Source: Physcia stellaris (taxonomy: Eukaryota; Ascomycota; Lecanoromycetes; Caliciales; Physciaceae). From it: a stretch of DNA of 64,000 nucleotides. The notes under the pieces are model-generated. The model had not been told where the DNA came from. It was given only the letters and a program-made list of their open reading frames with translations, and did not search any database. The stretch lies in the NCBI GenBank assembly GCA_018902385.1, contig JABSSW010000073.1, positions 62,001 through 126,000 on the forward strand, read 5' to 3'. The translations under genes and the position numbers were made by a program. Positions 23,624-61,230 of this stretch are shown here, piece after piece; the stretch's first letter is position 1; each line of letters starts with the position of its first letter.

Positions 23624-24091
23624 TAAGCGATTGCCGCAGTTGCAGCGGCACGCTCGGCAGCAGATGAATTGATTCGGTCTCGGGCCCACCTATCACGGGC
23701 CCACGAGAACGGAGTACGGTACAGTCCCCTGACACAGCAGATGGTCAGCGTGGATTAGATATAAGGCTTGAAGAAACCTGCGAAGTAATCACGTCTCTTA
23801 TTCGACCTTCGGCCATGCTATCAAGTTATTGCCATTAATGCAGCAGAGAATGCGGAAAGCTCCTAGCTATCCTGCAACTAAGACATCTTCCTAGTCTGGG
23901 GAGAGTTTTCCGAAACCACCTGCTCACACACATTGGGACTCCTACTAGTCTGCTGGATGACTGAGTATAAGTCTGCCTGGACAATTCAGAAAGCAGTCCG
24001 TAGCAAATCCCCGGCGATTTGACCTTCTGCTGCACCACTCACGGCAACTAACGCGTCTACCTTCTAACGCTGCTCTTGCTCTTACTCCGAC
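23624..24091. other. Spacer between the MITE and a secreted-protein gene
   Basis: No gene is supported in this 0.47-kb stretch. A short direct repeat (cgggcccac) occurs twice at about 23680-23705. Confidence 0.35.
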
Positions 24092-30596: not shown

Positions 30597-32758
30597 CTTC
30601 TTACGAGGTTGTTCCACTAGTGCTGGAGTCTTCAAGATCAGATCAAGCAATGCTATCATCGGCAGGATCTTGATCTTAAATAGATGTAGGAGAGCGAAGA
30701 TCTTTTACTAGAATTTCTTCAAAGTCCCTGCGACGAGCTCCAGTACCAATCAGAAGCATGCCCGCTTGTAGTAGGTGCATGCCTAGCTGAAGGATTGCAA
30801 TCCCGTCGACCTAGACCTTCAATGGAGTGGTACCAAATATTATTAATCCTCCAAACAGTCCCAAGACGAAGAACCTGAGTGAGCGTGGAATTTTCGAAAA
30901 TATTACCACTTTCTCCTAGTCCATCTTAACTCCAATTACAAGACAATATTTCAACTATGTCCAGTGCTTTCAGTCGTTAAATCCAAAATCTCGCCTAGCA
31001 AGTCTGCCCTGTTGTCGCGCTGTTTAAAGCCCTCCCTGAATTGTCAAGCGTGACCACCCAAAATTTGAGATACGGGTTGTCGCCTGAGGCAGGAATGGGC
31101 GCCGCTGTTGACAGGAGGCCAATGAACAAACCATAGAGATTCGTAGTGAGGCTGTAAAATCGAGTTCGATTAAAGTGTGATCTTGAGAACAAGAATACCT
31201 CCCAAGGCGGCTTACCACATGTACCTATCAAGTCAAAATAATGCTAGCAGTGCTAGCTATTATTTGCAGCCAGCGCCTGAAAGTAGCGAACTGTGCCGTC
31301 TCTTTCAAAGTGCACACACTCTCTTCAAGCATTTGTCGAGAGGAAGTCATTGACGCGACCTTGAGATCGGGATATGTGTACATGGAAATGTTCATTCAAG
31401 AAGTTCGGTGGCGCTGAATGGAAATGCCCCACAGAGCACCGTGATCTGGTACTTTAGCTAAACGCTGGGTGCGTCTTCCGATATTCCGGGCCTCGGGCGC
31501 AACACTTTTCATCCTGCTCCCAGCTCACAATACAGCTACCTTCCTACAGACTCATCCGCTGATCTCAGCATGTCTTGTAATCTAATCTCGTGTCCTTGCT
31601 ACAACGAGGCAGCAGTTCTAAGGTCAAGGTCGTAGATATGGCGGTAATTCCAACAACAGGAATAATGGAGATTCCTCAACCCTGCCGACGTACGCGTTGT
31701 CTTGGAAAATCGTGCGGGTCTCATCGGCCATCTGTTCCTTGTTGAGGGAAGGAAATCGTCGTATGAGGCCGTTGAAGGCTTGGAGTGTAGACATCCTGCA
31801 GTATTGTACGGATTCCCAGAGTGCCTTCCTCCAGTCTACAAGCCAGCCAATTCTTACTTGTGTAGTCGACGATAATCATTGTCCTGAATGCCCATTCAAC
31901 TTCCCATACCATTGCCGAAACTTGTAGACGCCACTGAAGCAGGATACCGGGGTAAGTGCCGATATCGTGGACTGATCTATGTAATTCATCACCCTGGGGA
32001 AGTATTCTTCGATCTCCTAGACTCAGGCCATTAGATCTGCAAGGGCACCTGCTGGCGAGAAACCAGATCTAGTTGTCGTACTGTTTATGGGAAGGGATTG
32101 CCCGTACTGCCGTCCTCCTTCGGTTTGGCTTTTGAAGTTCCACCACTTGTGTGCGTCAATCCTGTTCGTGCTATTGCCTTGCATGCAATCCTGGCCCGAC
32201 AATGTGAAGAGGACGAAACAAAAAAATTCTGATATCGCACTTCTATTCCAAAATTGGTTGATTAGTGAGGTACAATTTCAGACGCTCCTACGCCAGACCA
32301 TCTGATGGCGGTGTATTTCTGTAATCGTCGTACAGTTCTTGATAAAGCATGAGACTTCACATCCTTTGCCATGCGCCTCGCTCGATAAGCAAACGAGGTG
32401 CCATGACATTATCCGTGTATCACATGTACTTTTGACGATGATATAGCAACACAGCGGGTACGATCATCCCTATCGACACCCGACCGTCCCGGATTGCACG
32501 CTCTAGAGTTATTTGAATCTCGATCTGAGGTAGTCTTTGCATTTATTGTTGTTTTCAAAAGTTGACCAAGAGCCAAGAACGTGGTTTCCTGTGGCGTGAG
32601 ATGTTGCCGAGAATTATGTAGGATAGTAGCATGACACAACTGCTCGGTTCCTAGGCCGACACTGTATTCTAAGAAACGGAGCAAGACCAAGGGTCTAAAA
32701 GAAATATCGGTCTGTAGAGCATGCTCAGAAGTCGAATCAGTGCCCGATGTCGAGTCTA
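30597..32758. other. Gene-free spacer
   Basis: About 2.2 kb without a supportable gene. The frames at 30995-31231, 31697-31927 and 32409-32792 have no domains or splice support. A block at about 32288-32301 (gccagaccatctgatgg) resembles the box of the dispersed repeat but is too short to call. Confidence 0.4.
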
Positions 32759-34309
32759 CTAGGTAAACCACTCCGGAATGATGGATTCCCATGTGGAGTC
32801 ATGGGGGCCAACGGGCAAGCCAGGATGTTGTCCACCATATGTAATGTAACTGAGGTATTCGTCGAGCTTTTCCATTTCCTCTCCCTCGTCGTCAGGATGA
32901 CAAGGCCACCACTGTCCACCACGATGACGGAATATGCCTTGTAAGCCCAAAACCTCCCATCGAGGTTTTAGACGTAGCATCGATAAGAAACCCTCCCACC
33001 TCCATTGTAAAAGATCAATATGACTGAGCCAAAGCCTTCCAAGATTAGGCATTTGGTGAAAGGCAAGCCTATAGAGATCGGGACCGCTGATGGCGAGACC
33101 AGCAATATAGAATTGAAACAAGCGCGGCCATGCTACGTTTCGAGGAAAGACGTCCTTGTAGGAGTAGCAAGGCTCGTCATAATCGCGAAGCAGGTGCCGT
33201 TGTCTCAAATCCATATTTTCAGTCGAGGTAAAAATCAAAGCTAGACGCTTGAGGCCAGACAACTTACTCAAAAGATTAGGAAGAAACCCAAGTGAGGTAG
33301 ACTGGGGTTGCAAATGGTCGTGTAGTTTTCGGGGTGTGATCTGTAGCTCGAGAGTCTCCAAGTACCACAGAGAATATATCATTTGGTGTGGAAAGCGGTC
33401 TTCCATGCCGTAACGGCTAAAAAAGTGGGGCGACAGACCCTCGACTGCATGCGTGCCAGTATCAAAGAAACTAATCCTTCGTCTCGTTTTCGAAAGTGCG
33501 CGTATTATTAATTGAAGATGGCGATCTCTGTCCAAACCATCCAGAAAATTGGGCTTGACTGGACGCGGATGAAACGTTCCCCATTTGCGGGACAGGGGTG
33601 AGCCTGTAAAGTTGAGCTCTGAGGGTAAAATAGGCTGAGCATCTTCGATAAGGAGCCCGACCTGTCGATTTCCACGATCCCAGACGTCGTCGTCCATTTT
33701 GACTGATCTCAAATTTGACAACTGGAACATACCTAAACATAAAGTGGGGTAAAACATAGTGATGCAGGCATGCTCATCTTCCTCAAGTTCTTCCCATCTC
33801 GCAAAGCCTTTCCTGACCATTGCGTCGTTGCCATACTTATCAAACAAAGACTGTGAAGATGAAGATTCTGTAGCACGAACCAGCTGAGCCAGTCGTCGGG
33901 GGTGAGTAAAATGGGTCGAGCGTCTTCTGAATGGATAGAAGATCGACCTGATCTCTTTAAACATAAGCTCAAAGTACTCTCGGTGAGATAATTCGTAAAA
34001 TGTTGAGACATCATAGATGATCTTCTTGACCGACGCTGCAAGCTGCGGACGACTGGTAATCGCTGTGAAGACTTCGAGATCCTTGGTGCGTGGCGAGACA
34101 TAGACCTGGTCAAACAGCAGCGGCGTGACAAGAGCGTTGCAAACACTGTTAACAAGGCGGGTCTGTTTGAGATCTGACTTCTCCAGGTGCGTAGCTACAA
34201 GGCCCATGATCTCAGGTGGCAAATAAGGTACCAGTCCTTCTGGTACGTGTGGAACATCGGGAGGAGATTGATGCCGACGCGTCAATCTTTGGCTTCGCCG
34301 TAGAGGCAT
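32759..34309 (-). CDS. F-box protein
   Basis: A single frame of 516 aa. After a basic leader (MPLRRSQRLTRRHQSPP) the F-box reads VPYLPPEIMGLVATHLEKSD followed by LKQTRLVNSVCNALVTPLLF. The same TPLLF box occurs in the two F-box genes at 11.5-15.1 kb, so these are distant relatives. The body carries Leu-rich stretches (LVNSVCN, LLSKLSGLKRLALIF). An SCF substrate-adaptor role is inferred from the domain. It is divergent from the OSC gene with a 1.5-kb gap. Confidence 0.75.
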   Translation of the reverse strand: MPLRRSQRLTRRHQSPPDVPHVPEGLVPYLPPEIMGLVATHLEKSDLKQTRLVNSVCNALVTPLLFDQVYVSPRTKDLEVFTAITSRPQLAASVKKIIYDVSTFYELSHREYFELMFKEIRSIFYPFRRRSTHFTHPRRLAQLVRATESSSSQSLFDKYGNDAMVRKGFARWEELEEDEHACITMFYPTLCLGMFQLSNLRSVKMDDDVWDRGNRQVGLLIEDAQPILPSELNFTGSPLSRKWGTFHPRPVKPNFLDGLDRDRHLQLIIRALSKTRRRISFFDTGTHAVEGLSPHFFSRYGMEDRFPHQMIYSLWYLETLELQITPRKLHDHLQPQSTSLGFLPNLLSKLSGLKRLALIFTSTENMDLRQRHLLRDYDEPCYSYKDVFPRNVAWPRLFQFYIAGLAISGPDLYRLAFHQMPNLGRLWLSHIDLLQWRWEGFLSMLRLKPRWEVLGLQGIFRHRGGQWWPCHPDDEGEEMEKLDEYLSYITYGGQHPGLPVGPHDSTWESIIPEWFT

Positions 34310-35789
34310 TGATAATCTTTCGAGTGCAATTGGTGACCTTGGTCGCTGCCACGTTGTTACCGAGCTCTCGCGTGCAGGTACCGAGACGTACGAGTACTCC
34401 GTAAGAGATCGTTGAATGTCACCAATTCAACTCTGGATATCACACAATTTTCTTCCAGGACGCGTTGAAACAAGGACCTTCGGGCCGAAACCAATTGAGA
34501 TCCGAAAATGCCAAGCCGTATCCTAGTTGCGGACCAATGACAGACTGCTTATGTAATTAACCCTCAGTGCTATCAGAGTCTGGACTGCAGGCTACCCAGT
34601 GACAGAGACAATGGAGGCCTGCGATGGCAGATATAAGGTGACATCAAGATCTCTAAGACACGCCACCGAAACGACAACAGCTCCACAGTAAATAGCAATC
34701 TGCCACAGGTCACCGAAGCTCTCCGCCTTCGGGTCAATGACCTTCATCGGATCATTCATTTCCAGCCCCCAATAAAAGTCCTCACAAGCGCATACCCCAT
34801 AAACTTCACCGGTAACTCCACCACCCTTTCCCTCTCACACGCAAAATACTGATTCTCTTCCTGCCTCAAGTAGCCCCCAGTCATTCTCGACTATCTGGTG
34901 TAGAGTCGATGCGTTAAAGTGGTTTGGGAGACGTGTAGGATACCCCGGAGGGTCTCAGCAATAAGAGTTCCGCTGTCATATCCTTGAACGGCAAATGGAA
35001 CTTTAGCAGAATTTGATGATGTTGCAATATGTTCCACCCAGGATCAGAAAGATGTCGTTGGTCCCAAACACGTAGTCCGAAGTACCATCAGTAGACGATC
35101 AGATGCTGTCCCCATACCAACAATAGCGGTACTAAGCGATCATGCACCGAGGTAGAATTGACACGCGCAGGGCTCATGTCATACTAAACCCAGATGCGTG
35201 GATTTAATTAGATTTTTCTACTTGTTTTAATGAGAATGACGTTGACATTCCAGCGGTGGTGGCTTTTCTTACGTTCTTTAAGTTACTTCATTGAGCATTC
35301 GTTATTATATATGCAACTGCTGACCCACGCAATACTAGCGGTGGGATGCTCGAGCACGTGAGCATAATAGACGGTGCAGGATTAACGTTGTTCTAGGGGA
35401 AATTTTAAACCCCACTAATCTGAGCATCTTAGAGAGATGATCCTTGATGAAGCTGTGACGGCCGGACATGACGCCCTATGGCGAGGCGCTATAAAGAGCA
35501 TCTAGGTGGTGTTTGAGGCTTTGAGCTTAAATAATGCCTTATATATTCACGACCGAAATGCATTGAATAAGAAAGGTAAAGTAGACGACAATCACACTGA
35601 GTGACAACTAATCAAAAAAGAAATAAAAGAATAAGAGACTACTTCCCCCAGAGGTTTCCATAGGGCTGACCAACGTGTCATCGCAGGCACATCACACATT
35701 TCTCAAACATAATTGGTGAACTTAACCGACTACGAAAACCCCTCCAAGATTTGAATGTCTTACCTTTTCAATGATCACCACGTTCCACC
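34310..35789. other. Spacer with possible decayed coding sequence
   Basis: No intact gene is present. On the minus strand 34640-35100 reads in short protein-like pieces, for example ELPVKFMGYALVRTFIGG (about 34800-34850) and VPFAVQGYDSGTLIAETLRG (about 34940-35000), in different frames and interrupted by stops. This may be the remains of a gene that I cannot identify. The rest includes the promoters of the divergent F-box and OSC genes. Confidence 0.3.
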
Positions 35790-38325
35790 ATGGGATCCGA
35801 GGACTCGCACGAAGAAGGCAGCCGCCGCACAAATCTGGCCCAATGGCGACTAACCACCACCAATGGCGCTCACCGCTGGACCTACCTCAGTATCGATGAA
35901 GCGAAAACGCATCCCCAGTCCTTCGCGGAGCAGTACTTCCTCGGTCTCCTCAAGGTTCGCTCCTCATCCCCATCAGAAACCTCAACACCGCTTGAACTAA
36001 CACTCCAAAGAACACCCCGATACTACCGGCCCCAACGACAAGCCAAGATTCCGCAGCCAACGGCCTTCTATTTTATAAGCGTCTCCAGCTCGAAGATGGC
36101 CACTGGGGCTGCGCCTGCGTAGGACCTAGCTTTGTGCTACCTGGGCTAGTATTTGCGCTATATGTCACGAATACACCCATCCTACCGGAGTGGAGGATCG
36201 AAATGATAGCTTACAGCGCGCACCACGTGAACGATGATGGCGGCTGGGGACTCTTCCCTGGCGGAAGCACGATGGTCTGGACAACGGCTCTGTACTATGT
36301 GCTCTTGAGGCTTTTAGGAGTTCAAGCCTCCGATCCTTTGGCCGCTCGAGCTAGAGACCGCTTGCTGCTGATGGGTATGTTTTGGTCGGAGCGAGTGGGA
36401 ATGGTGCTTGTCCGGTGCTGACAGCCTGGGATAGGTGGCGCTGTTGGTGTTCCTCAATGGGGTAAACTCTGGCTCTGCGTTCTGAATCTCTACAGATGGG
36501 AAGGTGTGAATCCGGTTCCTCCGGAGTTATGGTGGGTTGAAGCCTCCCCTGCCTGGAACGAATTTATCGCTGAATCGTCAATTGCAGGCTTCTCACCGGA
36601 ATGGCTCGCTTTTCACCCATCGCGATGGTGGGTTCAGACACGTTCAGTCTACTGCCCGACTTCGTATATGTACATCAACAAGTGTCAAATGCCGTTAAAC
36701 CCCTTACTTGAGCAGATACGGGAGGAGATCTATGTTCAGCCTTTCTCGTCGATTTCTTTCAGTGATCATGCAGACACAGTGGCTGCCACTGATATGAAGC
36801 TGCCACCTTCAATGGTTCTGAGATTGGCGAACAGCGTCTTTCGGGTGTGGGACACTTATATGAGACCGAGATGGCTCCATCGGAAAGTTAATGATGCCAT
36901 CCGAGATCTCATACGGCGACAGGACGCAAACTCGTTTTTCAATGACCTTTCGTCAGTCGACCAAGCCTTGATCATGGAGGTGTTGTATTTTGATGAGGGA
37001 GAAGAAAGCGTCAGCCTTTCTAAGCATCGTGAGGTATTCCAACATTATGTTTGGCAAGGCGCAGAAGGCATGACAATTACGGCTACCGACGGTATACAAG
37101 TCTGGGACACTGCGTTCTCTGTGTTAGCCATCGTCGATGCAGGACTAGCACAGGATGTCCGCTTCCGAGATACCGTACTAAAGGCGCTCGACTTCTTTGA
37201 AAAAGCACAGCTCCGAGATAATCTATTAGATCCTTACCGCGAACCGTGCAAGGGTGGATGGTCTTTCAGCACAAGGGAGAACGGTTTCATGGTCTCGGAT
37301 TGTTCTGCGGAGTCGATGAAAGCAGTCATCTTACTTCAGGAACAATGGGAAGCCTCTTCTGTATTCTTCTGCCGTGGCTCATTGCTGACTTCGCTTAGTG
37401 GCCTGCCCAAGATCATATCAGATTCTCGACTTCGTGACTGCGTGGACACACTTCTTCTTATGCAAAGCTCAGACGGTGGCTTTGCGAGTTACGAGCGTCC
37501 TCGTACAGGCGCATGGCTTGAGATGCTGAACCCAACGGAGATCTTCGACCAGGTCATGGTAGAGCACAGCTACACCGAGTGTACGAGTTCAGTGCTGACC
37601 TCGCTTGCGCTCTTCCGAAGACATTTTCCTGATTACAGAGCTGCTGAGATTGACAGTACCATCTCACGCGCAGCTGGCTTTGTTAAATCTAGCCAGCGGC
37701 CTGACGGTAGCTGGGAAGGGTCTTGGGGCATCTGCTTCACTTATGCCATGTTCTTTGCATTGGATGCTTTGGAGAGGGTGCATGAAACCTATCATACAAG
37801 CGCAAGCGTACGTAGAGCATGCGAATGGCTCGTCTCGAAACAGAGAAATGACGGAGGATGGGGTGAGCATTATTCTTCGTGCGAGATGCGAAAGTATATC
37901 CAGCATGAGAGTCAAGTAGTCAATACGGCGTGGGCGGTGTTGGCGTTGATGTCTGCACGATACCCCAACAGGATCGATGTTGAAAGAGGGCTTCAGGTTC
38001 GTATTTTTCTTCAATGTCATTCGGGGAACCAACTAAGACTCGATGTACTTTCGTAGTTGATCCAGAATCGACAACAGCCGAATGGAGAATGGTTGCAGGA
38101 AGACGCGGAGGGAGTTACCAACCGGACCTGGTAAGTCGAGAGCCTTCCTTGGTATGAGCCAGTCCAGGATACGTTGTGACAGTCACTGATCTCCTTTTTT
38201 GTAATAGTACCCTCGCATACCCGAATTACAAGTTCTACTTCCCAATTCGAGCTTTAGGAAAATATGAAAACGTCTACTTACCACAATTAAAGGAGTATAT
38301 CCATTTAGACGGAGAAGTGTTCTGA
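35790..38325 (+). CDS. Oxidosqualene cyclase (lanosterol-synthase-like)
   Basis: Five exons (35790-35954, 36011-36374, 36435-37996, 38057-38130, 38208-38325) keep phase and give 760 aa, slightly longer than typical fungal lanosterol synthases. The enzyme class folds 2,3-oxidosqualene into a tetracyclic triterpene at the ER. The protonating Asp lies in VSDCSAES near residue 465, a DCSAE form of the usual DCTAE. QW-type repeats are visible (GGWGLFPGG, SDGGFASYE, RPDGSWEGSWG, RNDGGWGEHY). EGMTITATDGIQVWDTAF and NYKFYFPIRALGKY match conserved blocks. Around 37345-37395 a stretch (SSVFFCRGSLLTSLSG) fits the family poorly and may be an unresolved intron. It could be ERG7 itself or a second OSC used for a specialised triterpenoid; the window cannot tell. 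Confidence 0.85.
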
Positions 38326-38687
38326 AGTAAGTACCCACGTCTCAGTCTCAGGCAGTTGAAGTCCCCTTCCGGCGAAACGCGCCAAAGTGGGCTTTCCTGT
38401 ACGATTCATGAAGACCTTCATCTTGATATAGCGGTTCAGCGAGCGGTAGCGGAGGCAGAATGTTGCCGATGGAGGCAGCGAATGTCTCTATGATTCCAGC
38501 GATAGCCGAGGAATGGGTTTTCCTCTTCATCTGCAACATATTGTGTACCGATCTGGCATGTTGTGTTTGCAGGAGATTAGATTGCTCCCTCAATACAGCG
38601 GTATGCTGGCTTAAAGATAATACCGCGTATCCCGTGGTCTGTTGTGGTGCTATCCTCCCTCTCATACATTGTCACCGATAGCTATAA

Positions 38688-38831
38688 TGTAAGACTTCTG
38701 GATAAATAAGTCATTGATTGCATACTGTTCTATGAAATGCTCATTTACATGATTTTTAGCATCTAATGTCATTGAAATGCGCACTAATTATTAAGTTCTT
38801 GACGATTTCTGATTGATCATTTAGTTTTACA
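38688..38831 (-). repeat. LTR, left copy of the copia element
   Basis: 144 bp, TG...CA, preceded by TATAA. It aligns without gaps to the right LTR. Most of its RIP-like transitions lie in its right half, toward the element interior. Confidence 0.9.
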
Positions 38832-41800
38832 CATTTTTTAAAAAAAAAATATTTGATATTTCGTTTTATTTTTGATGTTTTATTCATTTTTTGATGTGAT
38901 TCATGATGCGATTTATTCGATTTTTGATTGATCGAATTCGTTGTTTTTTTGAATTTGATATCGAAATAAATTTTAAATCAATTAATTTCACGAATGTTTT
39001 TTGTTTTTGAAATGATAAAATTTTGATGAAATCGTCGATCAAAATATTCGTTGTAAAAATTCATTGAATGTTAATCGTGTTCTTTTGAATTTTTTGACGT
39101 AATTAATGACGATATATATCGACATAACGTAATTTAATGATTAATTTGATCGTTAACATAATAAACGTTCGTATAATTTGACGATTATCGCATTGAATGT
39201 GAATGAATTTTTTCATGTTCATTTGTATTGATTCAAAAAAACGATTTTATTACATTTTGATGTTGATCGTTATTGACATAATCAACAATTCGATTTCGAT
39301 GAAATTAATTGTAATTGTTTTTTGTTTTGTGATTTTTCAATCGATAAAATCGTCGAAAAACATAAAACAATATTCATTTAAATTTTGATAAATATTTAAA
39401 TCGTTTGCGAATGACGCATTTGACGAAATTAAAAAAATGATAATTGTATAATTTGTTTGATTTTTGTAAACGATGACGTAATATTTAATGTGTGTCAAAT
39501 ATTTTAACGTTCGAATCGTTTGTTTCGCATAATGTTTAAATGAATTCGTAAAATATTCAAATAATAACGATGCAACAACGATTACATTTGATCGAATGAT
39601 TGTTGCAACGAAATTAATTGATTCGATTTTTTGTTGATACATATGAATTTTTTGAAAAATAACATTATTTTTATTTTTTATTATCGAAATATGAATGAAT
39701 ATAAATGATTTTGATTTTTTTTAATCATGTCAATATTGAATTTGTTGATAAATTTGTCGATATAATTGTTTTGACAAAACGACGTTGTTTGTTGTTTTTT
39801 ATCGCGTGTAATGCGAATATTGAAAAATCATTCGATTTCATCGATGTTTTTCATTTCGTATGTTTCGAAAAAAAATTTTTCGAAAACGTCGATTTGTTTG
39901 AAATACTGAAAATAATACATGATTGTTATATCGTTCACGAAAAAAAATAAAATCATGTAATCATTGATAAATAAACATTCGATGTCGAACATTTGTTTCA
40001 AATTTAAATTGTTAAAAATGATCGATAAATGACGATATCATAACGTTGAAAATTGTTTCAATTCATAAAATGCTTTTAATAAAAAAAATAACACATTGTT
40101 TGTTTTTTTTCAATCGTCAAACGATTTACAATAAATGAATTCGTCGATATCGTTATTTGCGAATGCGTTGATTGCGTTATATTGACGAATGTTCAAATCG
40201 AAAATTGTAATTATAATCATTAATGTTCGAAAAATTTTAATAATTAATGTAATTGCGTAAACATTTTGTTCGATTTGTTGAAAATTTTTTCGAACACACA
40301 ATCGAATTTTGTGTTTTATCAAATATTTTTCGTTGTCGAATTTGTATTTGAATATTCATGTGATAAATATAAAAATTTTTTTTGTTTGTTTGACATGATT
40401 TCATGAAATTTTTTTTCAAATTTGTTTTGATTGTAATGTTTTGATTTTCACGTCAATGATTCGTAAAAAATCGATAATTTCAAAATGTTTGAACATTTGA
40501 TGATAAAAACGTGATTCGACGAAAAAATCGTCACGATACGATTTTTTTTTTCGTTATTGAAATCATAAATGTTTCATAAAATGAACGCATTTTTTTTTTC
40601 GAACGCGTTTTTCAAAATCGTGTAATGATTGAAATTTCGAAACGAATTTGATTTGCGAATACGAATGATTTTTTCAAATTGAATGTTAATTTCGTCAATC
40701 GTTATTTTCGTTCAATGTTTCGATTTTTTTTTTTCAACGACGATGCAAACGAAAATAATTTTTTTATTGTTTTTGCAACGACAAATGTCGAAAAATTTTC
40801 TGTAACAACAAATGACGAAAAATACGAAAAATCAAACGTATTTGACGTGTTTTCATTTTTTGACGAAAATAAAACAAATGAAAATAAATATTTTGATTCA
40901 AAATCGTTTTCAATCGTTTGTTTGTAAAATTTTTTTGCATCGCGATCGATAATAAATTTTGTAAATATTAATTTTCATACATTTTCGTCGTTGTTTGATT
41001 CGATGTTCATTATTTTCGTGAAATCGTTTTGCGATATGTCAAACGTATCGTTAATCAAAAAAAATTCGTTGACGAATTGAATTAAATTTATTTCATTAAA
41101 ACAATAACGTGAATTTTCGTTGAATGTGACATTACGTGTACGTATAATTTTTCGTTGATTAAAAATTCAAATAAAAAAAATGTTGATGTTGTCATAATTT
41201 ACAAAAAAATCGATGTGTGTTTTGATTTTCATTTTTTTCTTTTTCGAAATATTTTTATTCAAAAAATATGCTTTTGTTTCATATTGAACGATGTGAGCAA
41301 AATTCGATTTTTTGTCGATAATCATTTCGAACGATGTTTTTCATTCATGTTTTTTGAAAAATGTACGATTCATTATGTAATTAACGATTTCATTGATTCA
41401 CGATCATAAATAAACAAATAAATTTGTTTCGAATTTTATTGTTCGTGATTTGATCAACAATATATTATTTAATCGTTCGTTGTGATCGTTTTGTGTTGAA
41501 ATATCAACGATCGAAAATTCAAATGTAATGTTTTTGAATGCGCAATATTTATTTCATTCGATGTCGAGTGCACGTTCGTCGTCAAAACGTACAAATACGA
41601 TTTTGTCGTTGTATTTGATTTCGATGATGTGAATAATTCGAATAAATATTTTCGTGATTTGTTTTTTATTTTCGTGCGTGTATATCATGTGAAAATCTGT
41701 TTCGAAACATGTTACGTGTAATATTCATTCGTGTTTGTTCAAAATCGTTGTCATATCGATGAAATCGTATGTAATACGATAAAACGACTTGTTCGAAATT

Positions 41801-43682
41801 TTTGACTTTACAAAAAATTTGAATACAATTCGATGTATTTTGAAAAAAAAAACATTTTTCGCATTTGTTAATTAATGACATTTTATTTTTGTTGATAAAT
41901 TTCATTTTTTCAATTGTTTTTTGTAAATGTTGTATGACGTCATTATTCGCATGAACGAAAAATTGATATCATTTTAAAATAAATTTTTGTCGCACGATGA
42001 TTGCGAAAATGTTCATTTTTTCAAATTTATTATTTTCGAAAACGTAATGTGTTTTTATTCGTGACACAAAAACGATCGATGTATTGTTTTTATGCAAATG
42101 TTCATGAATTGTATCAAAATGCAATTTTTTGTTTGCGAAAATGCTTTTCGCGACGATATTGATCATGAAATTTGATACGTAATTGACGTTTAAAAATTTT
42201 ATTGATTTTTTTTTGTGAACGTATCGACGTTGATACGCATTCGATCATATGTCAAAATAAAAAATGATTTCATGTCGAACATAATTTTCGATTCGTTTGT
42301 GCAATTTCGTTTTTTTTTAAAACGTTATTTTATCGTGTTGTTAATCACGTGAATGTCGAAATCGTAATTCATAATTCACGACGAACGAAAAAAATAACTT
42401 GACGAAAACGAATCGTTTGTAAACGATTTTATGACATTAACGTGAATGACGACGAAAAATTTTATTTCGATTTTTTTATTCTTGTTATTATCGTTTTTTT
42501 TTGACGTTTTTCGTCAATTCGCTTGATGTTTTATTTTATTTTTATTTTTTTTGAATTTTTTTTCGTTTTTTTTATTTTAGTCACGATTTTTAATTTCAGT
42601 TTGAAATCATCTGAACGTATGTTTTCGTTGAAATAAAAACAATCGTCGTAAAAATGTTTTTTTTCGCAAATGCAAAAATCTCGAAATTGATTTTGATTTC
42701 GAAATGACGAAATGTCAAAAAAATTTCGATGTTTTGTATGTTCGCATTCGTCAATTGCGAATGTCGAATTGAATATCGTTTTTTTTTTCGAATTTTTTTC
42801 ATGCGTATGTGATGACGAAAAATTTCGATAAAAATGAAAAATTGTGTTTCGTGATTCGTTACGATGTTTAATTGAAATAATTGTATTTCAACGAAAATAA
42901 ATGCGATTTTGTCGATTGCGTGTAAAAAATCACGATACGTTCGTTTGTTATCGATAATTTCAACAATTTTCATTTGTTTAACGAATGTCAACATTTTCAA
43001 ATAATCGTTTATTCAAACATCGATATTTTAACGATTGAATGATTTTTTGATTAAACGATTGTATTTTTGTTTCAATTTCAAATTTTTAATCGAATCGATG
43101 AATGCAAAACGTGTTTTGAAAACGCGAAAAACGATTCATGAATGAATTTCAACGATTTGAATAAAATTGAAATTTGTAATCGTTGTTGTATCGTAAATGT
43201 GATCGATTATTTTTGTCATGAAATTTTTTTGTTTTTTCAATTTTGAAATTTTTTTTTGTATTTCGATGTCGCTATTTTGTATCGAACATGTTTTTCGTTG
43301 AAATTCGCATTTTGTTGTGTGTCAAAATTGAATTTTACGAATTCAAATTTGTTCGTTGATCGAATATTTTTGAATAAATCGATGAAATTTCAAATCGAAT
43401 ATTTTGTGATTTTGATTCGTACGATCGAAAATCACGCGTTTCAATTTTTGAAAAAATTCAATTTGAATTTTCGTTTCGTATTCGTCATCGTGCTGAACGA
43501 GCGAATAAATAAAAAAAAATTTTTGATTGTTGTTGATTGTAAAAAAATATAAACAAAAAAATGTTTTCGCGATGTTTTGATTTTTCGTGTTAATTTGTCG
43601 AAACAATCGAATGTTGAAAATATTGATAATCAAATAAATCACGTATTGAATGCAACAATTAAACGTGATTCGAATTTATAAT

Positions 43683-43826
43683 TGTAAAATTTTTGAATAA
43701 ATAAATCATTGATTGCATACTGTTTTATGAAGTGCTCATTTACATGATTTCTAGCATTTAATGTCATTGGAGTGCGCACTAATTACTAAGCTCTTGGCGG
43801 CCCCTGATTGGTCACCTAGTTCTACA
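43683..43826 (-). repeat. LTR, right copy of the copia element
   Basis: 144 bp, TG...CA, followed by TATAA. Its RIP-like transitions lie mainly in its first half, again toward the interior; the outer half is nearly untouched. Confidence 0.9.
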
Positions 43827-43831
43827 TATAA

Positions 43832-44743
43832 CAAAATTCGTACTCCTTCTCTGACAACAGGCATATGGATGTAATACGGAAGAGACCTCTTTTATGATTC
43901 CGTATCAAGTCAGGTAATCACAGCTAAAACGAACAAGAAAATCCCTTTAAATACCTTGTACCAGGCCATTGGATACATAAGAACCTAACAGCTGCATTTT
44001 TCTTCTCATTCATATTCTTGGTGCTCTTAATCGTCCTGGGTCCTGGATAATTCGCGCTGCATTGCACAGCCACAAAGTGTCTAGAGTAGATCTGTCGTCT
44101 AGAATTTCCAAGGATCCTTCCGCCGGCAGCTAAGCGGCAGGAACAGTTAACAATGGAGGCTCAAATGCTCACACCATGATCTCATGGCATCAAAAGGTCC
44201 AAGAGTATCCATAGTCCCCTTTTGACAGATAATTGTCTGATTGTGAGAGGGTGGAATGGAAAGGCGGAACAACGATCTCGGCCAAGCCATGGCCCAACCC
44301 TTGCATCCCTGAGGCGTCTTGGCCCATCTCTCATTCGTCCCTTCCATTCATCGGACTACTCCATTAACCTCCTCGCCAACCCAAACCAGCCAAGGTCACC
44401 CAAATATGGCGCCATGCCAATAATTTCCATCCATGGTAGTCAATTGGCAAGGCTAACCACACGGGCCCAGGTCGCGACTGTCTGTCGTACGAGAATGAGG
44501 CTGAGGAGAGAGAGGAAAGCATAAACGAACCTCGAATCTCCTTCTCTTTCTTCACACTCTTTCATTCTGCCCCTCTCCACACTGTGCGCGCTGCTATTCT
44601 TCACAGGATATTGATATTCCACTCCAAGAGTACACATTCTCTTCCTTCTGACTACAAAGTACGCAACGCGCGTTTACAACATCCACACTCCCCTACCCAA
44701 CAACCTCCACAGCCTTACCAAATCGCCTTCTAAATCTCTCACC
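43832..44743. other. Spacer upstream of the LITAF gene
   Basis: Contains repeat copy 5 and, from about 44540, a CT-rich promoter-like stretch leading into the LITAF gene ATG at 44744. No further gene is supported. Confidence 0.4.
43853..43985. repeat. Degenerate dispersed repeat, copy 5
   Basis: Just outside the copia element. It aligns with copy 4 over caggcatatg, agacctct, atcaagtcaggtaatcacag and accaggccattggata. It shows no RIP-like decay, so decay stops at the copia boundary. Confidence 0.45.
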
Positions 44744-45580
44744 ATGACCGAGAAATCCACAACCGGTACATGCATCTCCCTCCTCCCCATCCCCTTTCCA
44801 CACCCAAAACTAACCCCCTCCCAGGCGGCAGCGCCCCCCCCTACGACTCAAACCCACCCTACAGCCACACCCCCGCCCAGCCAACAATGGGTCTCCAACA
44901 CGCGCAAGAGCCCTACACCGTCCCCACCTCTCCCCCACCCCAAGTCTTCTCCCCCCAACCCCAGCAGCACCAAGGCCAATACAGCCAAGCCGGCGAAATC
45001 CAATACCAGCCGCAGCCCAACGACTTCCGCCCGCCCCAGCCTCAACACACGAGCAGCATGGATGGCCAGCCTTACACCGGGCAACAGCCGCTGCCGGCGT
45101 ACGGAGGGATGGAGCAGAAAGGGTCCTACTATGGCCAAGGACAGGGACAGGGACAGGGGCAGGCGATCCCGATGCAAGGTATGGGCATGGGCCAGCAACA
45201 GCAACCGCAGAGCCAATACCACACCGCGATGCCGCTCCAGAACCTAACCGAGGGCGCGGCGCCGGTGGATTGTCCGGCTTGCAGGCAGAGGGCGCTGACG
45301 CGGACGGAGTATGTTAGTGGGAACAGTACTATGTATGTTTCTTTTTCCTCCTCTCTCTCTCTCTCTTTTTTTTTCTTGGGAAACAGGAGGGGTGGGGTGG
45401 GTGTGATTGGCTAACGTTGATAGCGCATGGGCCGCCCTGCTCTGCTTCTGCTGCTTCCTTGGCTGCATCCCCTTCATGATGCGCTCGCTCAAGGACGTGG
45501 AGCACCACTGCGGGAAATGCGGGGTACTCCTGGCGACGTGGCATAACTCGGGTCGGGTGGTTGTGCATCAGCATGCTTAG
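44744..45580 (+). CDS. LITAF-domain protein with Pro/Gln-rich N-terminus
   Basis: Three exons (44744-44765, 44825-45332, 45424-45580) keep phase and give about 228 aa. The N-terminal two thirds is Pro/Gln/Gly/Tyr-rich, including a GQGQGQGQGQ run. The C-terminus is a LITAF domain: CPAC, then a hydrophobic insert (LLCFCCFLGCIPFMM), then HCGKCG. Family members are zinc-binding monotopic membrane proteins on endosomes and lysosomes, linked to sorting and ESCRT recruitment in animals; fungal roles are less clear. The second intron contains a CT microsatellite next to a T run (about 45352-45375). Minus-strand frames opposite the Pro-rich exon are shadows. Confidence 0.85.
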
Positions 45581-47026
45581 GTTTGGGTTTGTGAGATAAG
45601 GGATGAGGAGGATGAGGGGATGGATGTGTGTTTTTGGCTGTTGTTTGCCTGTTGTTACTAGGCTTGAGGTGGGGAATGGGAGGATAGCTTAGTGGGATTC
45701 TTGTTCTGGGGGGTGGAGTTGGGGATTACTCTTGGTTTGGGGGAGGGGGTGTACTCGTATGGAGTAGGAAGGACCGTATTCTTAAGGTACTACTTATAGG
45801 GTGTAGGAGATATCTTAATGAACGGGAAAAATTTCATCCTTACTGGGTACACTCAACGGGGTTTGAAGGTATAGATCGCCATGTGATCCGGTTGATGTTA
45901 TTTCACCAACCACCCGATGAACGCGATTTTGATAGTTTTCAATTTGCCCCCTCTTCTCTCTTTTGATACATACTAATACCCCACCTCTCAATTCATCTCA
46001 ACTTCTCTTTCACCTCTCCTCCTCTCCCCAACCCACTCGCTCCAAATCCCAACACCCCCAGTCTGGAATCATCATCCCTACCCTATCCCATCCCATCCTT
46101 TCCCACGGTATAAATCTATCCCTCTCCATCCTTCTCGAGGATCATACCCCTTTGCAGGACCTCCCATCAGCGCATGCATAACCCTTTCTCTCCAACGCTA
46201 TCGATAAATAGCATGAATAGAGATTCGGATAGTGGGGTTAGAAGTAGAAGGGGAGTGAACGGGGTCATTGATGGGGAGCTCTTGGTAGCTTTTTTTTGGA
46301 AGGGGGTTTGGGGTGGGTTGGGTTGGGTTGGGTTGAGTTGGGGTTAGGTGGGTGATTGGAAGAATGGGAAATGAGGTTGCTCAGAGTACTGAAAAGCGAA
46401 GAAGAGGTGGTTGCATCGGATCACTGAATTGCCACTATTGTAGCGGCTGTAGGGATCCAAGACTCAAGGCTCATGAATGGCAAAGGTGCTGCCGTGCGCA
46501 GAATCATTTCTATTCTTACTTTATGCTTGTATGACCATCCTGACCCTCCCCAAAGTCTTCGAGTCGATTGTTTTCTCTCTTTGGAAGGACGGTGACGCTC
46601 TTGGTATGCATGGACTTCGAGCGGAGGGGTTTGGGTTTTGAATAATCGTAGTAGGAGGAGCAGATGGCGAAGGGGAGCGAGGATACTGGATGGAGGACGA
46701 GATATGAGAGAGGGAACATGTTGGATGATGGGGAATCACTCCTACATTTCATGGGGGTCTCTTCCTTTTTGGAGGTTTGTGGAGAAGCAGCATTCTTCAT
46801 CACCGAGATTGAATATCTCAATTCCTTTCACAAGAGCCGGATTCGATGCTCTGCATAACAATATTAATGATTTGCGCTCGACCCTCTATCTTCAAGGCCT
46901 CGGTTCAATATCCGCAGTTACTGAGAACGTCTCGCTGGGATAATCCGACACTCATAATAAATTCAAGCCACTTGCAGCGTCGAAAGCCGCGAAGATTAGT
47001 AGATTCGAAACGAGTATATGCTCACT
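45581..47026. other. Spacer with G-rich telomere-like tract
   Basis: No gene is supported. At 46301-46352 the plus strand is G-rich and built on gggtt units (gggttgggttgggtt, then ggggttagg), able in principle to form a G-quadruplex. It resembles but does not equal the fungal TTAGGG telomere repeat. The sequence at 45950-46180 is strongly C/T-rich. Confidence 0.45.
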
Positions 47027-49362
47027 TCACTCAAACCCATCCCCCGCACCCTCCATCCCCACACCCAGCGGATCACCCCTCGACCCCATCGCCCGTGGAC
47101 TCAGCGGCGGGGCAGATATTTGATTCAGAGTCTCGCTCTCCATGTGCGTGGTGCTGGTGTTGCGGCTCGTGGAGTAGGACTGGTCGACTACAGTTAGACT
47201 GTCCCTATCCATTGTCGTGTCGTGGGTTTCAGGGGGGCGGTGAGCGCCGTGTTCGGTGGAGGAGAGTGCTCGTTCTAGAGAGCGGAAGAGGGGGTACATG
47301 CTTTCGAAGGGGAGCGTCGTCGGTTTTCTTCTTTGCCCTGGTTGCGGTCGCTGCCGGTGCTGCCGTCCGTGCTAGATAGAGAGTACAAGCGCCGCGCCTC
47401 TGCGATTTGGCGACGGCCTTGATTCGGCTTATCGATCCTGATCCAGCTCTGCGCTGCCAGGAGGCTCCAGAAAGCCGTTTGCCGGCGTCGGGCCCCGAAG
47501 GCTAGAAGACCCATACCTGCAGCATAGCATTCTCCCATCCTCTCGGCCATAAACGCCTGAGACGTTGGGCTTAACACGCCGAGCTCGAGCAACTTCCCGC
47601 CCCACCGCGCCGCCTCCTCGGCCGCTGTCGGACCTCGACTTTTTAGTAATTCGATTGCCAGAGTCAGGGTACGGATGGCGCCAAAGGGGAGGGAGCAGCG
47701 CGTGAGGTAGCTATATGTCGCGGTCTCGAGCATCTGGTCTACGGTCTCGGTTCTACTTCTCGAGGACGCGGTTTGTGGGATCAGCAGGTAGGAGATCGCT
47801 GCCATTTCGTTCGCAGCCGCGTGATACGCCCATGCTTTGTCGGTCGAGAAATCTGAGCGGAGGAAGTCGTAGGTTGAGTACGCGAGCCGGAAATCTCGGA
47901 GCATGAAGGCGTAGTCTGCGAGCGTGCGCATGGTTGCTTCTGGGGTGGTCGGGGGGTAGATGCCTAGATTGGGGTCGTAATTACTGTTCGATGAGGGGGA
48001 AGAAGAGTTCTGAGAATTGCGCGAGGAGCCAAATGCGGTCCAGCGTTTTGAGAGGGACATGAAGCGCCCTGAGAGTCCGCGTCGGCGGGAGGCGACTTGG
48101 TCGTTCCAGGTCATTATTCGGTTTTCCATGAAGGGGACCAAGGACTGCGTAACCATTTCGCGAAGGAAGGAACGGATTGCGGTGGCGTCGGAGTCGAAGA
48201 TGTAATGTATAGAGGGGCTGTCGGTGTCGTAATCAATTATAGAGATCTGGGAGAGGTCTTCTTCTGCGGGAAGCCAGGATGATGGCGGGACTTCAATGCT
48301 GTCGTCGTCGGATTGAACGCAGTTAGAGCTGCGGAGGCGGAGTAGGTGGCAGTGGAGGCCGAAATGACGTTTCATCAAATCGAAAAGGGCGGTGGATTTG
48401 GTGATGTCGTCTTGCTCTTCGTCATGGATTAGAACATAATAACGAAGGTATTCGGGGCCCACGAAAGTAGGAATTCGTCTTCCAGACTGGTTGTAGAGCT
48501 GTCGGAGTGTTTCGATTGGAGATTGGTTGTGTGAGCTGACAGCTATGATACATGCGACAGGATGGCAGAAGGTCTCGTACGGTACCATGAGCATGCTTGA
48601 GAGGAGCTTCCGTAGGTACAATGAGTAGACCTTCGACGATGATTGCGGCGGCTTCTGTACCCTGTTATCTGAGTCGATGTAGCCGCTACTTCGAGGTTCT
48701 CCGGTTTCTTCATTCCGTAGATGGTGATCTATGAGCTTTTCAAATGAGGAACCCGAATTGCCGCCAGAAGATGTGGAGTCTCGCGGCCCAGAAGTCCTTC
48801 CGTTGACACTTCTTCCCATCTCTGAAGATAATGGCCTGAATGGCTGACCATCCTCGGGACCAACAACCATTATGCCAAAGTCTTCCCATGCTTTACTTGC
48901 TCCAACGCTATCTCTTACTACCACTTTTCCTGGTATGCGCTCTCCGTACGGTCTCAGCAAGTCCCGGAATCCTCCAGTGAAGCCCTTGCCCTGAATAAAC
49001 TCCTCGGTATCCACCGAAGCGTATATCGAGACGCGCGGGGCGAAGGAACCAGTAACGATCTGACGAGGCTCGTCGTAATTACCTGGCAGAGGAGCAGGCG
49101 ACGAGGACCTTGTCCCAACACTGGATGAACGTTCATAGCTTCCTTTTCGAGGCCCTTCCGAGGACTTCAGCCTTTGCGGTAATGGTCGGAGAGGCGATTG
49201 TGTGACATCAGGTGAGCTCGCGGAGAGAAAGCCGTCGATCCTTGGGGACTTGGGGCTGAGGGTTGTATCTACATTTGGCAGGCTACCGGAAGAATGCTGC
49301 CGTGATAACGTCGGCCGAGGCTCTCGCGGGGAAGTTTGCTCTGGATTGAAGGGAGATGTCAT
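47027..49362 (-). CDS. TRS85: TRS85/TRAPPC8-like TRAPP subunit
   Basis: The main frame (49362-47275, 695 aa) has a Ser/Pro-rich leader, then the diagnostic TRS85 block SFAPRVSIYASVDTEEF, GGFRDLLRPYGERIPGKVV and VRDSVGASKAWEDFGIMV. A TRAPPC8-type helical body follows (LADYAFMLRDFRLAYSTYDF, AYHAAANEMAAISYLL). TRS85 directs TRAPP to Rab/Ypt1 activation in ER-Golgi traffic and autophagy. The frame ends in an uncharacteristic tail (RRSPSKACTPSSAL). A second frame (47299-47027), joined near 47310, continues with LPFESMYPLFRSLERAL, the expected family ending. No good intron joins them, so a one-base frame difference (natural or sequencing, in an A/C-rich stretch) is likely. It is divergent from the next gene by 480 bp. 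Confidence 0.8.
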
Positions 49363-49842
49363 GGATATGGCGCCTGCGCATCAGGTATCGGGACAGTAGG
49401 AATAGAATGCCTTGACCGTCGAGGTCTTTTTCGATGTTGCGCAATACTGAAACTGGTGTGGTCTGTCAAGGTGGGTATCCAGAGGTTCAACATCATGTAT
49501 TGATCGTCCTTACAGTGTTGCGATCCCCCAGCTATGCAGGCCAGAGGAACAGAGTCTTCATTGGTGCTTGTGTTGGATTCGATGTTTGCTGACTTTGACG
49601 GCTGTCAACTTGCGGCATGACGATCCGACTCACTTATCCACCGCCAAGACGGAAGCTTGCCCCGGATCAAGGTCCGTACTCCGTTTTCCGTACAGTACTA
49701 AGGAGCTAAGGTACATGTACCTCAGCATGACCTCCCAGCACGAGCCATGGCTTTACCAGAACAACAAACTTGCGCTCGCGTACCGCTGGTAGCTTCACAT
49801 AACAGTCTACGAATCTCACCTCGAGCTTAGTCGCCATACGCG
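49363..49842. promoter_or_regulatory. Shared divergent promoter region
   Basis: 480 bp between the divergent TRS85-like and sterol-reductase-like genes. No separate gene is supported. A paired agtacta/aggtacatgtacct motif lies at about 49694-49724. Confidence 0.3.
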
Positions 49843-51513
49843 ATGCTTCGACACAAAAAAGACGTCGAAGCTATCGCTGCCCAAGTCAAAGAGCTGTATC
49901 ACCGGCGGGAACCCTTTCGCATAAATCATGGTTCGACGAATAGCACGCGCCAGTCCGTCTTCGAGCGCAGAAGGACGATAGACATCAGTCACCTGAAGTA
50001 TGTTCTCAATGTGGATGTGGAATCTCGAACGGCTCTAGTAGAGCCCAATGTACCTATGGACCGTCTTGCGGAAACGACTTTGAAATACGGACTAGTCCCG
50101 CCAGTCGTCATGGAGTTCCCCGGCATCACAGTAGGAGGCGGATACGCAGGAACGTCTGGCGAAAGCAGCTCCTTCAAATACGGCTTTTTTGACCAAACAA
50201 TCAATTACGTTGAAATGATACTTGCGGATGGAGAGCTGGTCACAGCGTCAAAGACGGAGAGAGCAGATCTTTTCCATGGTGCAGCCGGGGCATGCGGTTC
50301 GCTGGGAATTACAACGCTCGTAGAGCTACAGCTCATAGAAGCAAAAAAGTACGTGGAGACAACCTATCATCCGGTCAGTAGCATGTCAGCAGCTGTGGAG
50401 AAGATACAGTCTTTCACCAGGGACAAAGAGAATTACGATTACGTGGATGGAATTCTATACTCGGGAGACCGGGGTGCCATAATTACAGGCCGCCTTACAA
50501 ATAAGAGAGCGAATGATAACGCGGTTCGAACGTTCAGCCATGCGAATGATCCCTGGTTTTACTTGCATGTGAGGGAGACGATCACCAAAAATCATGATCC
50601 TGTCACAGAATACATCCCACTAGACGAATATCTTTTCCGTTATGATAGAGGAGGATTCTGGGTCGGACGTTCTGCGTTTCAGTACTTCTTCACCCCATTC
50701 AACCGCTTCACGCGATGGTATCTGGACAAATATCTTCGCACTCGAATGTTGTACACGGCACTTCATGCCAGTCGTCACACTAAGCCATACGTCGTGCAGG
50801 ATCTCGCGTTGCCAATGTCTGCTGCTACGGAGTTTGTGGAGTTCACTGAGAAAACGTTTGGAATCTACCCACTTTGGCTTTGTCCATTGCGTCAAAGCGC
50901 ATCTCCTACCTTTCACCCACATACCCCAGACAATAGGGTAGATACAGGACCGCAAAAGCTTATGCTCAATATCGGCCTCTGGGGCTACGGGCCTAGTAAT
51001 CATAACACCTTCATGCGGGTTAGTCGTGCGTTGGAGAGTAAGTTGCGCGAGCTTGGTGGCATGAAGTGGCTATATGCCCAAGTATATTACTCTGAGAAGG
51101 ATTTTTGGGACATCTATGGTCGAGGGTGGTACGATGATTTGCGCCAGAAATACAATGCAACGTCCTTACCCAGTGTATATGAAAAGGTGAAGATCGATAT
51201 CGAAGCCGAAACAAAAGCAGTCAAGTCGTCCTGGTGGCTATGGTTTCTGTCTTTCTGGCCTATCAGTGGTTTCTGGAGTCTATGGAAGGCAAAGGCAAGC
51301 CGGCAATATCTCCTAGCTGACAAGGCGAGCTGGAAGTCAATTGAGGAAAAACATCGCAATGGCAGGGCTAGATTGGGCTCGCTGGTTTGCAAGGCTATGC
51401 ACATACATATGATCGCATGGTCGTTCCCGGATTTCAGTGCAGAAGCCCTTCAAATAATCTGCTGCCAGAGGGGATCGCCCAAGCTCTGGCTGGCGGTCTC
51501 GGAAATGGACTAG
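49843..51513 (+). CDS. Delta(24)-sterol reductase-like FAD protein
   Basis: One frame of 556 aa, starting at the ATG at 49843. The FAD-binding (PCMH-type) domain is typical of the DHCR24/DIMINUTO family: HGSTNSTR, VLNVDVESRTALVEPNV, then EFPGITVGGGYAGTSGESSS and GFFDQTINYVEMILADGE. The C-terminal half includes LYAQVYYSEKDFW and an aromatic-rich segment (WWLWFLSFWPISGFW) that could contact membrane. Animal and plant relatives reduce the C24 double bond of sterols with NADPH. Ergosterol synthesis does not need this enzyme, so a fungal copy hints at modified sterols or triterpenoids. Unlike human DHCR24 there is no N-terminal membrane anchor. It lies about 11.5 kb from the OSC gene. Confidence 0.8.
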   Translation: MLRHKKDVEAIAAQVKELYHRREPFRINHGSTNSTRQSVFERRRTIDISHLKYVLNVDVESRTALVEPNVPMDRLAETTLKYGLVPPVVMEFPGITVGGGYAGTSGESSSFKYGFFDQTINYVEMILADGELVTASKTERADLFHGAAGACGSLGITTLVELQLIEAKKYVETTYHPVSSMSAAVEKIQSFTRDKENYDYVDGILYSGDRGAIITGRLTNKRANDNAVRTFSHANDPWFYLHVRETITKNHDPVTEYIPLDEYLFRYDRGGFWVGRSAFQYFFTPFNRFTRWYLDKYLRTRMLYTALHASRHTKPYVVQDLALPMSAATEFVEFTEKTFGIYPLWLCPLRQSASPTFHPHTPDNRVDTGPQKLMLNIGLWGYGPSNHNTFMRVSRALESKLRELGGMKWLYAQVYYSEKDFWDIYGRGWYDDLRQKYNATSLPSVYEKVKIDIEAETKAVKSSWWLWFLSFWPISGFWSLWKAKASRQYLLADKASWKSIEEKHRNGRARLGSLVCKAMHIHMIAWSFPDFSAEALQIICCQRGSPKLWLAVSEMD

Positions 51514-52366
51514 CCTTGAACCGAATTATCTCATTCACTCTTTAGTAGTCATGCACGGGAACTTGTACACGACCTGTACCTATCTTGTCATAAATGAAAA
51601 CGCGGTCAGAGACGAATTGTCCTGCAGTCTAAATATGCATCCAAGGATACTGACGGCCGACGAGGAAGCAGACCATTCATCAGATTTCGTCGTCTTTCTA
51701 CCCCTTCGTTCGTCTTCAAGGGCAGCGCTGAAAGTGTGGCTCAGAGTATCGCATACAAGTTTGGTGGGTAATTGCCTAATCGAAAAGATACTCAGGATTT
51801 GGGGGACCAAGAGAAACCTGAGTTTACCGAGAGAATGGTGGTGGTTTACAGCTTGGTTAGAATGTGGAAGCCCCTGCATAAATGCGTTGCGAAAAGTGGT
51901 GTGGGTGTGTGGTGGCTAGCAAATCAGAGATCGTAGTAACCGCCCTGTCCTCCCCCAAATCATCGATATACCACTCAAAGGACTTCCGGGGCGAGAGGCA
52001 TTCCAAAACGTTGGGGGCTTTGATTCCGAACGGCACACCTTCCCATTCGAATGTCGACTTGTTGCGGTCCCTTTGAATAGGAAGCATGAGCCGCACGACT
52101 ATGTACAGAAATAGCAGCAACAATGGGGACTTTCTCTAGGGTAGGTCGATTCAGTTCCAACGACCTCTTTCTTATTCCTTCAATTTATGTTTTGGTCTCG
52201 TCTATCGCTACACTATATATAAACTTTGTTCTGTCACCGTTGGCATTCAGTCAAAATTGGTGGTTAGTTCATCGTTCTTCGTCGAGCTAGCCTTGGATGT
52301 CCCCGTTCCCCATGTCACCGTGTTTCAAGAGGTGTACACATCGAAGATAAAACTCGATCATCGTCT
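51514..52366. promoter_or_regulatory. Spacer with TATA box for the next gene
   Basis: No gene is supported; the 122-codon frame at 51551-51919 has no domain. A strong TATA-like element (tatatataaac, about 52213-52223) lies about 150 bp before the ATG at 52367. Confidence 0.4.
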
Positions 52367-60989: not shown

Positions 60990-61230
60990 CGTATGTTGAT
61001 TCGAAAATCTTGAATTTGCACGTTTTGAGATCTTGCGCATTGTCGAAGAACGAAACCACTTTGTATGCGAAAACAACAGATATTTCAAGTTTATTGACGA
61101 TTGTTGACGTGTTCGAAAAAATGATCGTTTTGTATGCACATTTTGCAATTATCTCAAGATTCTAGTCGTTGTTAAATGTCAGAGAACAGAACAATTTTGT
61201 ATGCAAATTTGACAGATATCTCAACAACAG
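60990..61230. repeat. Imperfect tandem repeat of about 80 bp
   Basis: Three diverged units each contain a core like ttttgtatgca followed by acagatatctcaa, at about 61060, 61130 and 61195. No coding meaning is evident. Confidence 0.55.

Follow-up and report, generated by a model that had tools for sequence, protein, structure and literature searches.

In a 64,000-nucleotide stretch of the Physcia stellaris genome (contig JABSSW010000073.1, positions 62,001 to 126,000; hereafter the window, in which all coordinates are given), a probable Ty1/copia-like retrotransposon at 38688-43826 has lost nearly every cytosine that precedes a pyrimidine (CpC and CpT, together CpY, which read as RpG on the other strand), while cytosines before a purine (CpA and CpG, together CpR) are spared. 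This context rule applies to both strands, comes close to saturation within the element and holds in only three blocks of the window. Repeat-induced point mutation (RIP) is the local, dense and transition-only mutation of transposons on both strands, and since mutation of just this kind is seen here, a RIP-like process with a CpY code has very probably been at work inside the window; the fuller account, namely repeat-directed, RIP-like C:G-to-T:A hypermutation in the order CpC ≥ CpT >> CpA, CpG by a writer of the RID/DIM-2 kind, is the one we favour, as a probable rather than a secure reading.

The element and its mutated contexts

The element is bounded by two long terminal repeats (LTRs) with TG...CA ends (TGTAA...TTACA on the left, TGTAA...CTACA on the right), and the 5-bp sequence TATAA on both of its sides is a target-site duplication. 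Its parts are as follows.

38683-38687, no strand: left target-site duplication copy TATAA, from flank comparison, identical to 43827-43831
38688-38831, minus strand: left LTR, 144 bp, with 15 of the 22 sites that differ between the LTRs in the T/A state, clustered on the interior side
38832-43682, minus strand: near-saturated interior of the probable Ty1/copia-like element, 4851 bp, the strand being taken from a weak RVT_2 piece
40113-40355, minus strand: RVT_2 reverse-transcriptase piece, stop-free, 81 amino acids, a weak Pfam match below the cut-off
43683-43826, minus strand: right LTR, 144 bp, with 7 of the 22 differing sites in the T/A state, clustered on the interior side
43827-43831, no strand: right target-site duplication copy TATAA, from flank comparison

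The RVT_2 match, found in one of ten stop-free minus-strand pieces (15.7 bits, E = 0.012, Pfam cut-off 31.6), suggests that the element is probably copia-like and lies on the minus strand, and we take its order of motifs to resemble that of copia; a longer stretch of the same frame, with stops set to X, gave no Pfam match. Stretches resembling reverse transcriptase and RNase H were seen by eye on either side of 39720-39831 (minus strand) in different frames, a difference from which at least one insertion or deletion, before or after the burst of mutation, is likely. Patterns made from the element found nothing in contig collections in which a fungus is not expected: that of the reverse-transcriptase piece returned 12 stretches from the viral collection, none confirmed, and that of the LTR returned none from either the viral or the prokaryotic one.

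A first-pass annotation, made from the letters alone, had described the interior as nearly devoid of CC, CT, AG and GG, with CA, TG and CG still common, and dinucleotide counts against the flanks bear this out and strengthen it. The flank sample comprised 81 overlapping windows of 4851 bp drawn from 1-23000, 24001-38687 and 43827-60500, with genes included but the sample not restricted to them. The interior contains 22 CpY/RpG sites, against 1183 ± 67 per flank window (minimum 1080) and 597 ± 17 in 1000 shuffles of its own letters (minimum 528); CC and GG are each at 0, so that both strands are affected, and CT is found 17 times and AG 5 times. With CA at 197 and TG at 394, the sum of 591 lies near the 659 ± 26 of the flank windows, as does CpG (297 against 253 ± 30). 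Expressed as density relative to the flanks, CpC stands at 0, CpT at 3.5%, CpA/TpG at 90% and CpG at 115%; the observed/expected ratio of CpG reaches 4.05, and that of TpA falls to 0.45, against 0.76 and 0.67 in the flanks. The pattern left by methyl-CpG deamination, or by a process like methylation induced premeiotically (MIP), in which CpG goes down and TpG/CpA up, is not what the interior displays.

A gap-free alignment of the two LTRs shows 22 differences over 144 positions, every one of them C/T or A/G. When every site with C in at least one copy, on either strand, is classed by context, differences are found at 22 of 30 CpY sites and at none of 27 CpR sites (CpA 0/23, CpG 0/4), which upholds the earlier statement that all LTR differences are transitions at CpY; none was found outside this context. 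Sites on the plus and minus strands are intermixed within the same ~100 bp. Mutation also tapers toward the outer edge: with both LTRs pooled, mutated CpY sites number 0 of 18 at 0-36 bp from that edge, 3 of 12 at 36-72 bp, 4 of 12 at 72-108 bp and 15 of 18 at 108-144 bp. The P values for context (Fisher, 1.7e-9) and taper (Mann-Whitney, 1.7e-7) assume independent sites, and neighbouring sites may not be independent.

In the left LTR the mutations lie mainly to the right, and in the right LTR mainly to the left; further in, the first 200 bp of the interior at the two ends hold 0 and 2 CpY/RpG sites, and the flanks adjoining the element have normal composition. LTRs are normally identical at insertion, yet each of these carries its mutations toward the interior; the process therefore struck both strands of the element after it had integrated, and faded before the edge over the outer ~100 bp. 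The lack of any LTR difference outside CpY points to a burst and away from slow decay.

Two further blocks and the rest of the window

A scan at the 150-bp scale gave three merged blocks with a CpY observed/expected ratio below 0.55 and no others in the 64 kb. Beside the retrotransposon, these were scanned as 23126-23550 and 60601-63975, and correspond to the following features.

23113-23625, no strand: second affected block, an element with terminal inverted repeats (TIRs) of 67 nt, 85% complementary
60601-64000, no strand: third affected block, AT-rich, truncated at the end of the window; it too bears the CpY mark, with CpT less strongly hit

In the 379-bp interior of the TIR element, 18 CpY/RpG sites remain against 94 ± 14 in 534 overlapping flank windows, and CpA/TpG is unchanged (52 against 51). 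Its arms differ at ten positions, eight of them transitions (seven at CpC and one at CpG, contexts read from the alignment) and two transversions. The left arm is in the T/A state at the seven CpC sites, six of which lie near its inner end, and the right arm is still C-rich.

The third block has CpC at 1.8% of flank density, CpT at 45%, CpA at 103% and CpG at 95%, and it lacks both CC and GG between 61057 and 63325. As CpC is nearly gone where 45% of CpT is left, the order of targets is CpC, then CpT, with CpA and CpG hardly touched. This block has internal repeats, with 15/45-nt units and units spaced 132-138 nt, and includes a 15-bp minisatellite of about nine copies at 63016-63162, over which a minus-strand frame gave a sub-threshold match to the histone H1-like family HC2 (29.6 bits, cut-off 40). 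Pfam searches with six pieces of 60601-64000 found no transposon domain and, besides HC2, one weak match at chance level.

Conversion was simulated on both strands of flank DNA. A rule converting 100% of CpC and 96.5% of CpT reproduced the 16-dinucleotide table of the retrotransposon interior with a total variation of 0.033 (r 0.996; G+C 0.246 simulated, 0.249 observed), and one converting 100% of CpC and 55% of CpT reproduced that of 60601-64000 with a total variation of 0.016 (r 0.999; G+C 0.301 against 0.303); the CpT levels were chosen after the counts had been seen, and with one or two numbers thus adjustable the fit shows consistency without being a prediction. The unmutated flank and rules of the CpA, CpG, CpC-only, CpT-only, uniform and Neurospora-like kinds all fitted the interior worse (total variation 0.16-0.39, with 0.39 for the CpA rule and 0.28 for the Neurospora-like rule), and the CpA, CpG and Neurospora-like rules failed to reproduce either large block.

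AT-richness as such was considered separately. The AT-rich windows that the scan gave away from the blocks and block edges, four overlapping 400-bp windows at 10801-11600 and 13201-13600, served as controls. Their CpY observed/expected ratio of 0.81-1.03 speaks against it as the main cause, and within these few overlapping windows the loss of CpY is not a property of AT-rich DNA at large; CpG is also low in them (0.52-0.69), opposite to the blocks.

Outside the three blocks the window has a G+C of 0.49. The matches from Pfam searches with 20 of the larger open frames include TRAPP Trs85, Anp1, DUF6601, DUF7025, an AAA ATPase with fungal lid, a squalene-hopene cyclase and GH30, families suggestive of a fungus and probably of a filamentous ascomycete; the Trs85 and Anp1 genes also found relatives in the PDB, where 32762-34426 had no match. 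The Rfam scan at gathering threshold and the tRNA scan each gave 0 matches, and the Trs85 protein returned 23 stretches, none confirmed, from the prokaryotic contig collection, where again a fungus is not expected. The squalene-hopene-cyclase-like frame (36422-38053, plus strand) ends about 630 bp before the retrotransposon, and the AAA ATPase with fungal lid (58735-60567, minus strand), with DUF7025 in the adjoining frame, lies directly beside the third block. An 80-nt stretch is found four times in otherwise unmutated DNA, at 284-363, 6866-6945, 8023-8102 and 28499-28578, the others being 60-80% identical to the first; they may belong to a gene family that has diverged, its copies lacking the length or likeness needed to attract the process.

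Proposed mechanism and alternatives

In the account that we favour, the blocks would have undergone C:G-to-T:A hypermutation of both strands as double-stranded DNA, after integration, in the target order CpC ≥ CpT >> CpA, CpG, the last two being hit at a rate of about zero. Repetition, that is homology between copies, would be the trigger, and the writer may be a RID/DIM-2-type cytosine C5-methyltransferase with its 3'-neighbour preference shifted from A to C or T. The first-pass annotation had proposed a cytosine-mutating process with a different dinucleotide preference, and as candidate writers a variant RID/DIM-2-type methyltransferase or a separate deaminase, both of which stay candidates; within the window the preference stands, with CpY as target, CpA and CpG spared and the mark found in three blocks, but cytosine and guanine cannot be told apart as the modified base, because a C before a pyrimidine equals a G after a purine in sequence.

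Several points weigh against this account. The T/A state is assumed to be the derived one, and the copia assignment depends on the sub-threshold RVT_2 match. The AT-rich control windows show a mild deficit of CC+GG when these two are considered by themselves (0.51-0.90), and CpG in the TIR interior, at 10, is half the flank mean of 20 ± 6; in the TIR arms, one of the eight transitions lies at CpG and two of the ten mismatches are transversions. Transposon ends mark two of the three blocks, whereas no transposon domain was found in 60601-64000, and a second copy of any block was not seen within the 64-kb window. Finally, CpC is the least favoured context in two RIP orders given in PMC5496416.

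Among the alternatives, a repeat-directed mutator that has the inverse of the RIP code (CpC before CpT, with CpA and CpG not recognised) without being of the RID/DIM-2 kind, whether a new enzyme class or one acting on the guanine of RpG, seems unlikely, though worth keeping in mind; such a mutator would recognise its target by the element and begin ~50-100 bp inside its edges.

We give a lower chance still to a separate cytosine deaminase, capable of acting on double strands and recruited to repeats or heterochromatin, for which the near-complete conversion of the interior, together with near-absolute discrimination between contexts, would suit a processive enzyme. Deaminases of the AID/APOBEC type take their main cue from the 5' base and favour single-stranded substrates, whereas the strong determinant here is the 3' base. 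Opposite halves of the two LTRs, and both strands of the integrated DNA, are mutated, which speaks against deamination of cDNA during reverse transcription, a reading that we reject as the main one.

Comparably improbable is the gradual, spontaneous deamination of 5-methylcytosines that a methyltransferase acting on CpC and CpT had placed in silenced repeats. DIM-2 is described as methylating mainly non-CG sites, with CpT preferred (review PMC13297926), but the fungal repeat MAGGY is methylated at CpA in preference to CpC and CpT (PMC7979813), and with all 22 LTR differences at CpY and no other class in 144 bp, mutation must have far outpaced background change.

It is very improbable that guanine was the mutated base, with the G of RpG changed to A through a lesion like O6-alkylguanine formed at the repeat, giving a spectrum like single-base-substitution signature 11 (SBS11). 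We know of no repeat-directed guanine alkylator, and free alkylation would affect the whole genome, whereas the damage here stops inside the element and is limited to three blocks. The dinucleotide context nevertheless equals the one observed: the SBS11/temozolomide pattern, ascribed to O6-methylguanine, consists of C>T changes at CpC and CpT (PMC12556801), and N-nitrosodimethylamine (NDMA) and other SN1 agents cause G:C>A:T changes at guanines with a 5' purine (PMC10041537). The third block, however, is unequal in this respect, with CpC (that is GpG) at 1.8% and CpT (that is ApG) at 45% of flank density, where an NDMA table from Mgmt-/- has A and G at position -1 about equal, 42.5 against 41.6 (PMC10041537).

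Ordinary RIP of the CpA type, its signature altered by an unusual sequence, or else a peculiarity of base composition in an AT-rich element, can be set aside as scarcely credible. There is some precedent, in that Magnaporthe oryzae and Botrytis T4 have signatures dominated by CpT with CpA second (PMC4352252) and repeats of Stagonospora nodorum are depleted of CpC/GpG as well as CpA (PMC2621366), but CpA/TpG and CpG persist near flank density, none of the CpA sites in the LTRs differs, the CpA and Neurospora-like rules fit far less closely than the CpC/CpT rule, and the AT-rich control windows outside the blocks keep their CpY.

Classical indices and known systems

Classical RIP is scored by TpA/ApT of at least 0.89 and (CpA+TpG)/(ApC+GpT) of at most 1.03 (PMC2621366, PMC10998396). 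The two indices are 0.45 and 1.28 in the retrotransposon interior, 0.41 and 1.54 in 60601-64000 and 0.70 and 1.27 in the TIR interior, against 0.70-0.71 and 1.23-1.26 in the flanks, and all three blocks score as RIP-negative. Because of this, a species with a CpY code would be overlooked and listed as lacking RIP. The restriction to transitions that marks classical RIP is found (all 22 LTR differences; eight of the ten in the TIR arms), but its preferred target, CpA, is spared, as the first-pass annotation had noticed: none of the 23 CpA sites in the LTRs differs and CpA/TpG keeps 90% of its flank density. From the genetic code, it can be deduced that on a coding strand a CpY code would create a new stop only by TGG to TGA, and that damage to amino acids would fall mostly on codons for Pro, Gly, Ser, Arg (AGR) and Trp.

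The published order is CpA>CpT>CpG>CpC for Neurospora crassa and CpA~CpG, CpT>CpC for Trichoderma reesei (PMC5496416). CpC thus comes last in both, whereas CpC and CpT are nearly the sole targets here, and what determines RIP sequence choice therefore becomes directly testable by comparing this species' RID and DIM-2 proteins with those of CpA species. RIP in N. crassa (by RID, with DIM-2) shares with the present case C:G-to-T:A transitions on both strands, a heavily mutated transposon-like target and spared flanks; it differs in that here CpC and CpT are almost gone, CpA and CpG are kept and TpA falls instead of rising, so that the target order is nearly the inverse of the Neurospora one. The likeness to T. 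reesei lies in a shifted dinucleotide preference, established there by crosses.

CpT targeting and some CpC loss are already known in RIP, and neither is new. A target led by CpC with near-complete sparing of CpA was not found in the extracts of open-licence literature consulted, which do not cover Clutterbuck 2011, reportedly a main survey of RIP contexts, and an earlier report is possible.

With regard to CpT, Amselem et al. distinguish signatures of three kinds, CpA, CpT and CpG, of which CpT ranks first and CpA second in Botrytis T4 and M. oryzae, and they tentatively tie the CpT signature of M. oryzae, Botrytis cinerea and Sclerotinia to a RID motif (PMC4352252); CpT changes beside CpA are reported in Anisogramma (PMC10998396), CpT-to-TpT changes reach high levels both in Tad1 of Neurospora and in some repeats of S. 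nodorum (PMC2621366), and they dominate in control sets of large retrotransposon derivatives (LARDs; PMC7882544). These CpT-signature cases (M. oryzae, B. cinerea, Sclerotinia, Anisogramma) resemble ours in having CpT as a main target, but CpA is targeted there too and CpC goes unnamed in the text of PMC4352252, whereas in the present element CpC is the foremost target and CpA escapes. With regard to CpC, the likeness is to the CpC/GpG depletion of S. nodorum (PMC2621366) and the CpC-to-TpT double changes of Monilinia (PMC8959702), where, unlike here, CpA-to-TpA is the main or classical change. The CpG-type bias of Basidiomycota and Tuber (PMC4352252) is likewise a transposon-linked C-to-T change in a non-CpA context, though CpG is spared in our element.

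Outside RIP, COSMIC SBS11, the O6-methylguanine signature, shares C>T at CpC and CpT, or G>A after a purine, but comes from alkylating agents that are not directed to a locus, whereas here three blocks are affected and CpC far exceeds CpT in one. As to the target itself, the element shares with Ty1/copia LTR retrotransposons its TG...CA LTRs, its 5-bp target-site duplication and its weak RVT_2 piece, and differs from them in that its coding sequence has been destroyed and its family assignment is weak.

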